Shown here one piece after another: positions 1 through 16,523 of a stretch of 33,478 nt of DNA. The notes under the pieces were generated by a model that saw only the letters and a list, made by a program, of their open reading frames with translations, had not been told where the DNA came from and did not search any database. The stretch is taken from positions 1 to 33,478 of the forward strand of contig NCHN01000036.1 in the NCBI GenBank assembly GCA_002281875.1, read 5' to 3'. A program made the translations under genes and the position numbers. This stretch comes from Sphingobacteriia bacterium 24-36-13 (GTDB lineage Bacteria > Bacteroidota > Bacteroidia > Chitinophagales > Chitinophagaceae). Each line of letters opens with the position of its first letter. Positions within the stretch are counted from its first letter, which is position 1.

Positions 1-11
1 ATCAAGCCATT

Positions 12-67
12 GAACCGTGACCTTCCCGATTCCATCGGGACGCTCTAGCCAACTGAGCTAACCCCCC
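12..67 (-). pseudogene. tRNA-like fragment, third unit
   Basis: This third unit matches the middle one through the D-arm and anticodon-like arm and reads ACGGTTC at the T-arm position. The sequence after it (GGCTTGAT) runs to the window edge, so whether a complete tRNA gene follows cannot be seen here. It lacks a 3' acceptor strand within the visible bases. Confidence 0.6.
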
Positions 68-103
68 ATTTATTTTTATTTCAAAAGAACAATCAAGCCC
101 ATT

Positions 104-159
104 GAACAGTGACCTTCCCGATTCCATCGGGACGCTCTAGCCAACTGAGCTAACCCCCC
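104..159 (-). pseudogene. tRNA-like fragment, middle unit
   Basis: This second unit has an intact D-arm and a perfect five-base anticodon-like stem with loop ATGGAAT. The variable region AGGTC is followed by ACTGTTC where a T-arm should be, with no complementary strand after it. It differs from its neighbours by few bases and by one extra G in the following GGGCTTG, which explains the 92 versus 91 period. It is probably not an amino-acid acceptor. Confidence 0.6.
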
Positions 160-194
160 ATTTATTTTTATTTCAAAAGAACAATCAAGCCATA

Positions 195-250
195 GAACCG
201 CGACCTTCCCGATTCCATCGGGACGCTATAGCCAACTGAGCTAACCCCCC
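195..250 (-). pseudogene. tRNA-like fragment, promoter-proximal unit
   Basis: This is the first unit downstream of the promoter at 260-290. The D-stem carries a substitution (TAGC instead of GAGC), so it no longer pairs fully, while the anticodon-like stem TCCCG/CGGGA is perfect. The seven-base loop ATGGAAT would place GGA at the anticodon, with U33 and A37 present. A GGA (serine) anticodon would normally go with a long variable arm, which is missing. The unit ends near GGTTC with no matching T-stem or acceptor 3' strand, so it is unlikely to be a working tRNA. Confidence 0.6.
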
Positions 251-259
251 ATGAGATTG

Positions 260-290
260 CAAATGTAAGCGGCGGCTGCTAATCCCCAAA
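260..290 (-). promoter_or_regulatory. Bacteroidota-type promoter reading into the tRNA-like array
   Basis: On the minus strand, TTTG (287-290) is followed after exactly 19 bases by TACATTTG (260-267). This is a full match to the Bacteroidota housekeeping consensus TTTG-n19-TAnnTTTG. The predicted transcription start, about seven bases further, lies near 254, just before the first G of the tRNA-like unit. The same kind of promoter precedes the real tRNA at 16446. It suggests that the array is, or recently was, transcribed. Confidence 0.7.
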
Positions 291-15459: not shown

Positions 15460-15494
15460 GGGAAATGCAATAGGAGAGGTATCCGAAAAATGTA

Positions 15495-15580
15495 TCACCT
15501 TCCCTTCGCAGGAATTACCCTGTTCAGGTTCAACGGGTATTTCTCAGCCGAACTAATAATATGTTCAGCACCCCGAGGAC
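15495..15580 (-). ncRNA. TPP riboswitch (THI element)
   Basis: Minus-strand sequence contains the conserved parts of the thiamine pyrophosphate aptamer in order: TCGGGGTGC, a short variable P3 arm, GGCTGAGAAATACCC, ACCTGAACAGG, GTAATTCCTGCG and AAGGGAAG. The CUGAGA bulge and the GGG/CCC and CAGG/CCUG pairings match the known P2 and P4/P5 layout. The outer P1 stem looks weak in this copy. It ends about 70 bases before the receptor start codon and has no obvious intrinsic terminator, so control is more likely at translation. Confidence 0.93.
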
Positions 15581-15584
15581 AATG

Positions 15585-15592
15585 CAAAAATA
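15585..15592 (-). promoter_or_regulatory. -7 box before the TPP riboswitch
   Basis: TATTTTTG on the minus strand matches TAnnTTTG exactly and would start transcription near 15578, at the first bases of the aptamer. No TTG is found at the usual -33 distance, so the promoter is only half supported. Confidence 0.5.
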
Positions 15593-16445: not shown

Positions 16446-16517
<72 letters not shown>

Positions 16518-16523
16518 CAGCTT

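Follow-up and report, generated by a model that had tools for sequence, protein, structure and literature searches.

A tandem array of tRNA-Ala(GGC) 5' halves as a candidate footprint of a GIY-YIG nuclease cassette in a Bacteroidota tRNA gene

Tandem repeats that carry a piece of a neighbouring tRNA are known from the rtT repeats of the E. coli tyrT operon, and small single-domain GIY-YIG proteins are known from the UPF0213 group (PDB 1ywl type), for which we know of no tRNA-gene context. In T-even phages, SegB is a free-standing GIY-YIG homing endonuclease that cuts in tRNA genes, and according to the part of the account available, tandem amplification of tRNA-Tyr requires both the nuclease activity of SegB and phage recombination genes (PMC13096335). 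In fungal mitochondria, the accessible part of a second source describes mobile ORFs of the LAGLIDADG or GIY-YIG type that replace the ends of genes, as in Allomyces atp6 (PMC3630166). The open-access literature, in the parts that we could search and with subscription journals and preprints mostly outside it, yielded no description of GIY-YIG genes with broken tRNA copies in Bacteroidota, and in the portion consulted of a 2006 survey of GIY-YIG proteins we met no link to tRNA genes (PMC1564403).

Here we analyse a 33,478-nt stretch of DNA from Sphingobacteriia bacterium 24-36-13 ("the window"; contig C51 of genome G000 in our numbering), which begins with a tandem array of tRNA-Ala(GGC) 5' halves, together with related loci in other Bacteroidota. 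Like the units of this array, the rtT repeats are tandem and contain a piece of the adjacent tRNA, but they are 3' pieces located downstream, and they are not known to have an arm-replacing hairpin or a nuclease. SegB is similar in that a GIY-YIG nuclease lies beside a tRNA gene and a tRNA segment is amplified in tandem by homologous recombination; however, it belongs to a phage and not to a chromosome, its 718-bp repeat consists of a whole tRNA plus segB rather than broken halves, and the available part of the account describes no arm-replacing hairpin (PMC13096335). In that same part, the preferred SegB motif is given as RAWTSGAAC, which looks like the complement of a T-loop. The fungal mobile ORFs are comparable in that the ORF follows a gene with an element-borne end and the native end is displaced downstream. 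In contrast to our locus, they concern 3' ends of organelle protein genes, with no 5' copies, arrays or hairpins in the portion of the source at hand (PMC3630166).

Read on the minus strand, bases 250-1 of the window comprise three head-to-tail units of 91-92 nt (250-160, 159-68 and 67-1; Table 1), the last of them incomplete. Because base 1 is also the first base of the contig, the third unit is cut off there, and at least three units are present. A repeat search placed direct repeats at 7-98, 99-190 and 190-281, with spacings of 92 and 91, bearing out the three repeats of about 92 bp reported by the first-pass annotation; the 190-281 repeat scores just 73% because the repeat register overruns the unit into the promoter. 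Each unit opens with the 27-nt 5' half of tRNA-Ala(GGC), GGGGGGTTAGCTCAGTTGGCTAGAGCG, followed by TCCCGATGGAATCGGGA, and the loop ATGGAAT is present in the units as had been claimed. One correction concerns where the units end. They do not stop in the anticodon arm: 3' of the hairpin, each retains AGGTC, a T-loop-like remnant (GTTC) and an A/T-rich spacer. The TTTG-n19-TACATTTG motif at 290-260, which we take to be of the Bacteroidetes promoter type, lies next to the first unit, as that annotation had it.

Table 1. Features of the array at the start of the window; mismatches are counted against GGGGGGTTAGCTCAGTTGGCTAGAGCG.
Feature	Position	Strand	Remark
TTTG, upstream promoter element	287..290	-	19 nt ahead of TACATTTG
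TACATTTG, downstream promoter element	260..267	-	9 nt ahead of first unit
Unit 1 (outermost), tRNA-Ala(GGC) 5' half	224..250	-	1 mismatch
Unit 1 hairpin TCCCGATGGAATCGGGA, replaces anticodon arm	207..223	-	
Unit 1 remainder: AGGTC, T-loop-like remnant, spacer	160..206	-	
Unit 2, tRNA-Ala 5' half	133..159	-	0 mismatches
Unit 2 hairpin	116..132	-	
Unit 2 remainder: AGGTC, T-loop-like remnant, spacer	68..115	-	
Unit 3, tRNA-Ala 5' half	41..67	-	0 mismatches
Unit 3 hairpin	24..40	-	
Unit 3 remainder, ends at contig start	1..23	-	

The structural tRNA and covariance-model scans that had been proposed for the array gave no intact tRNA, either with ARAGORN or with Rfam at the gathering score. In a lax Rfam scan, two of the three units reached 26.2 and 22.9 bits, under the cut-off of 29, and none of the units has a complete cloverleaf with acceptor and T stems. 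We found no further copies of the unit in the source genome beyond the array. A 68-nt query from the tRNA-Ala of a relative (G011) found no match to the 3' part of the gene in this genome, an empty answer that weighs little. A profile of the small nucleases described below detected no small GIY-YIG nuclease in it, and the only two GIY-YIG domains found in it lie within frames of 609 and 452 aa. Elsewhere on the source contig are a TPP riboswitch at 15484-15585 (-) and an ordinary tRNA-Met at 16446-16518 (+).

The orthologous locus could be recognised in seven fetched loci by its divergent neighbour gene (366-1610 of the source contig), and here vacant and occupied alleles occur at one and the same place, as is seen with homing endonucleases. 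In two vacant loci (L028 and L030), the promoter is followed after 8 nt by an intact tRNA and a terminator-like sequence. In an occupied locus from a Sediminibacterium relative (L006), the 5' side consists of the promoter, 9 nt, one unit, the intact tRNA and a terminator-like sequence, after which come a GIY-YIG ORF, AGAGC with a hairpin, a tRNA 3' half and a second terminator-like sequence. When the outer flanks of L006 are joined, the left through nt 27 of the unit and the right from after the second hairpin, they align to the vacant gene and reproduce it except for precisely the 16 nt of its anticodon arm. L005 is laid out in the same way, with a stop early in its nuclease frame; L007 resembles L006 on its 5' side and is masked from inside the tRNA onward, and other loci likewise contain masked stretches.

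In L005 and L006, the unit is thus followed directly by an intact tRNA-Ala(GGC), in line with the earlier suggestion of a duplicated lead-in to a real tRNA outside the window. It had been proposed to look left of base 1 for further copies and an intact tRNA; the contig begins there, the assembly lacks the region in which relatives have the intact tRNA, and it is the relatives that show it. The missing left part of the source contig presumably follows the same plan. The suggestion that the array is expanding fits the unit numbers, which differ among relatives whose flanks are 93-94% identical: G067 has no unit, G011 has one, G061 has one and another that is partly masked, and the source contig has at least three.

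Two of these relatives carry something larger. In G061 (contig C13, L004/L232) and G067 (contig C12, L031/L233), the same tRNA-Ala gene is interrupted just 3' of the anticodon arm, and an island-like stretch ends in another tRNA-Ala 5' half, which has a promoter of its own, and in a complete tRNA, 18.2 kb away in G061 and 16.4 kb away in G067. The nuclease frame at the far end of the island is interrupted by a stop in G061 and cut short in G067; the broken frames in G011, G061 and G067 would fit decay. One could therefore read the arrays as scars of integrase-driven islands attached at the tRNA-Ala gene, for which the 16-18 kb between two 5' halves, and the new promoter plus complete tRNA where that stretch ends, would speak. 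However, the junctions in G061 and G067 retain the natural arm CTTGCATGGCATGCAA and have no hairpin, unlike the units, and in G061 units persist beside the island junction. No such island was seen in the other fetched stretches, a weak test as most of these span 3 kb. We rejected integrase scars on account of the missing hairpin and regard this origin as highly improbable.

Across relatives, a search with a 91-nt query gave matches in 42 of the 101 genomes of the genus and in 175 of the 294 in a sample of the family (E of 0.001 or better), though many of these matches are merely 27-29 nt of ordinary tRNA-Ala. ARAGORN and inspection of the fetched loci (L004-L121) placed the units immediately 5' of an intact tRNA-Ala(GGC). 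After repeats of the same sequence plus upstream stretch had been dropped, 48 distinct tRNA-Ala(GGC) genes remained, of which 30 have 1-7 units upstream and 18 have none. Units of the same kind thus recur before tRNA-Ala(GGC) in many relatives, the search in related genomes having been proposed earlier, and for this reason the array is more than a chance arrangement. The 5' halves of the units follow the tRNA of their own genome, with a mean of 0.97 mismatches to it, and none at all in 17 of 30, compared with 7.5 to other variants; at the 18 loci whose tRNA is not the commonest one, the units are closer to their own tRNA in 16 and equally close in 1.

A TAnnTTTG box lies within 40 nt ahead of the first unit at 18 of the 30 unit-bearing loci, 8-11 nt away in 14 of these 18, and directly before the tRNA at only 2 of the 30. 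At the 18 loci without units, it lies before the tRNA in 16, at 8-11 nt in 13 of them. Since the promoter precedes the first unit and in vacant loci precedes the tRNA, the first unit holds the place of the tRNA. One exception is L013 (G046), where the promoter is included in the duplicated stretch. In 10 occupied genomes the intact tRNA has the same sequence as in 8 vacant ones and so has not been recoded against cutting, and we set aside the idea of a recoded, cut-resistant tRNA.

On the other side of the gene, a duplicated 3' half lies downstream of 14 of the 48 tRNA-Ala(GGC) genes, 12 of the 30 with units and 2 of the 18 without, and a nuclease is found at 9 of the 30 unit-bearing loci versus 2 of the 18 others. 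At 16 of the 30, some of them near contig ends, there is neither nuclease nor 3' copy. The arrays could alternatively have arisen by plain tandem duplication of the tRNA front, through slippage or unequal crossing-over, the extra copies losing function and the nuclease settling next to these genes independently. The 16 bare loci speak for this. The regular spacing and near-identical copies within arrays, and the duplicated promoter of G046, would be expected from such a process. Yet it does not account for the placement of 5' pieces before and 3' pieces after one tRNA, nor for joined flanks that give back the vacant gene but for a single arm. It also leaves unexplained the new hairpin considered below, and we judge plain duplication to be unlikely. 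An age order of the units, which would have pointed to nesting, was not significant: outer units appeared older than inner ones in 7 of 13 arrays, inner ones in 3, with 3 ties (two-sided p 0.34).

Is the nuclease tied to tRNA genes more generally? A profile built from eight GIY-YIG proteins, independent of the hairpin pattern and hence free of its bias, matched 56 of 79 genomes of the class at 1e-8. Y6, Y17, G19, R27 and E63 are invariant in all eight proteins, consistent with a catalytic domain, and Pfam PF01541 (GIY-YIG) was found in 3 of 3 tested proteins of relatives. These proteins are similar in size to the single-domain UPF0213 group; PDB 1ywl was the sole structure match of the small nuclease (E 8.8e-05), and tblastn with one of the GIY-YIG proteins found no phage homologue. 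We studied the better-scoring 90 of more than 150 nuclease matches (30 + 60), and dropping L184, which has no passing ORF, left 89 loci, in which 108 ORFs or pieces of ORFs were scored; L125 and L152 coincide, and overlap among a few others is possible.

At 42 of these 89 better-scoring loci (L125 and L152 being one place), a tRNA on the same strand ends within 100 nt upstream of the GIY-YIG domain, and the tRNAs span 16 isotype-anticodon classes. With about 50 tRNA genes per 4 Mb, an assumed density, fewer than 1 in 1000 ORFs would be so placed. Opposite-strand tRNAs within 400 nt number only 2. At 25 of the 42 tRNA-adjacent loci, the final 30 nt of the tRNA reappear behind the ORF with at least 20 of 30 positions matching, and at 16 with at least 27 of 30, a similarity of 20 of 30 being reached by 0.1% of shuffled regions; at the other 17, no tRNA 3' copy was found within 350 nt. 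Thus at 25 of the 42 loci, the putative native end lies 3' of the ORF and the putative replacement upstream, as in gene-end replacement. The nuclease frames that we inspected stop at or before the hairpin, and in L046, L078 and L124 the stop codon is the TAG of the TAGAGC that opens the broken tRNA copy, so that ORF end and copy abut.

Nine more of the 89 loci have a tRNA within 400 nt downstream of the ORF. Three of these were read (L146, L177 and L178), and in each the ORF sits between a hairpin-broken 5' copy and an intact tRNA-Arg or tRNA-Glu, mirroring the usual order. The remaining 38 comprise 13 with tRNA-like motifs only, 18 with CGAAG/CTTCG repeats, 2 at a contig end and 5 at which nothing was noted. 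The 18 loci with CGAAG/CTTCG flanks, for example CACCCTGAGCGTAGTCGAAG, have no tRNA nearby and include L143, L162, L187, L192, L194, L196, L198, L210 and L211; perhaps they are a second, repeat-associated niche of the nuclease.

The units of tRNA-Ala(GGC) carry a TCCCGA-loop-TCGGGA hairpin where the anticodon arm belongs. The pattern AGAGCN-TCCCGA-N2-9-TCGGGA occurs in 15 of 60 genomes of the family and 31 of 247 of the phylum, and the reversed control pattern had no match in the listed genomes of either set. In 31 of the 43 pattern loci that we examined, an intact tRNA lies on the same strand no more than 600 nt away, with isotypes that include Lys, Arg, Val, Met, Gly and Ala. The other 12 are L062, with an opposite-strand tRNA only (by reading, its displaced copy is itself on the same strand as its tRNA), four near a contig or locus edge, including the source contig, one that is the working tRNA-Ala of G534, and six without a called tRNA. 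Arrays extend to other isotypes as well: tRNA-Thr is preceded by 5' units in L019 and followed by eight 3' units in L051.

The hairpin does not appear to be a palindrome that is freely dispersed. In 40 family genomes, TCCCGA-N2-9-TCGGGA has 357 forward matches versus 59 for the reversed control (more in 31, fewer in 5, equal in 4), and in the one genome that we followed, G151, reading places 30 of 35 TCCCGA hairpins in tRNA-derived fragments, where they occupy D, anticodon or T arms. We rejected a freely dispersed palindrome as the source, though 5 of the 35 are not tRNA-derived. The displaced tRNA-Gly and tRNA-Val copies of L119 (2000-2100) and L100 (1450-2200) have an extra T-arm hairpin besides the one in the anticodon arm.

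A perfect stem of at least 6 bp is present in 22 of 25 displaced 3' copies, versus 11.7% of shuffles (the stems of L154 and L170 may not be substituted ones); over the same span, working tRNAs have such a stem in 6 of 25, all of them with Ala or Pro arms that are long by nature. Stem sequences vary (TCCCGA, TCCCGC, TTCCGA, TCTCGTCA, TCCGCC and others), so that what is shared across the class is a hairpin and not one sequence. Because the TCCCGA stem was part of the queries or patterns by which many loci were retrieved, its frequency there is biased. The stem does not mirror the arm of the host tRNA: in Algoriphagus sp. A40, the tRNA has CTACAC/GTGTAG and its three units have TCCCGA. The hairpin may destroy a cut site, mark the ends of a cassette, or stop broken halves from misfolding with the real tRNA. 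A complete tRNA-Ala(GGC) of G534 (L107, 1481-1554, -) has TCCCG/CGGGA, which indicates that such a stem is possible in an apparently working tRNA.

Could the units be functional RNA, either a selected leader that forms strong hairpins and tunes the processing or supply of tRNA-Ala or a source of small RNAs or decoys? Because they lie between promoter and tRNA, the transcript should include them, and the tRNA is probably transcribed through them. One unit folds at z = -1.99, and the stem is highly intact, with 138 distinct perfect contexts versus 7 with one mismatch, many loci having been fetched by the exact pattern. But the few mismatches, seven in all (2 G-U, 3 A-C, 2 other), do not lean towards RNA-type wobble, the similar hairpins of 3' copies are located beyond a terminator, units come and go among relatives with almost the same flanks, and 18 of the 48 tRNA-Ala genes do without them. 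A functional RNA therefore seems improbable to us.

We favour, with moderate confidence, a reading of the array as the 5' footprint of a tRNA-Ala(GGC) gene that was invaded by a GIY-YIG cassette with a spare tRNA and then multiplied by recombination. A small GIY-YIG endonuclease cassette would enter the tRNA gene, splitting it in the anticodon arm and delivering a complete replacement tRNA, by which we propose that the cell retains a working tRNA. The original 5' half would remain at the native promoter and the original 3' half would be displaced to downstream of the nuclease ORF; with a hairpin in place of the natural arm, neither half, in our proposal, could be a tRNA. Identical halves would then recombine, probably in response to breaks, and so multiply 5' units upstream and 3' units downstream. 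Direct-repeat recombination between the tRNA 3' half and its copy could delete the nuclease and the 3' copy, leaving a solitary 5' array.

This account is built, at the level of sequence, on the nested layout, the vacant and occupied site, the identity of units with their tRNA, the displacement of the promoter and the same-strand link between GIY-YIG genes and tRNAs of many isotypes, all of which a comparison of the loci shows. It supposes in addition that the nuclease cuts tRNA genes and that cutting drives insertion and amplification. Counting against the cassette are the 16 of 30 arrays with neither nuclease nor 3' copy, the source genome without a small nuclease, the non-significant age order, the same tRNA in occupied and vacant genomes, the 17 of 42 tRNA-adjacent nucleases with no 3' copy within 350 nt, and the duplicated promoter of G046. 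The interpretation in the first-pass annotation is partly supported as a whole; the GIY-YIG nuclease genes, the mirror-image 3' halves and the same arrangement at tRNAs of many isotypes go beyond it.

More tentatively, these loci may belong to undescribed, phylum-wide selfish cassettes in the tRNA genes of Bacteroidota, each made of a single-domain GIY-YIG nuclease and a complete spare tRNA, with the same hairpin on both sides marking the ends and making the halves uncuttable, and with repeated cuts in the spare tRNA ratcheting up the 5' arrays upstream and the 3' arrays downstream. Genes for tRNAs are familiar landing sites of integrases. At the loci described here, very small nuclease genes seem to enter essential tRNA genes, over many isotypes, within an arm, and to do so with impunity by bringing a spare tRNA along. 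Odd tRNA calls at such loci (tRNA-???, tRNA-Stop) would then be explained as displaced copies. If the proposed cutting is true, the cassettes would give phage SegB and fungal gene-end replacement a counterpart on the bacterial chromosome, and would offer a natural system for break-driven tandem amplification.
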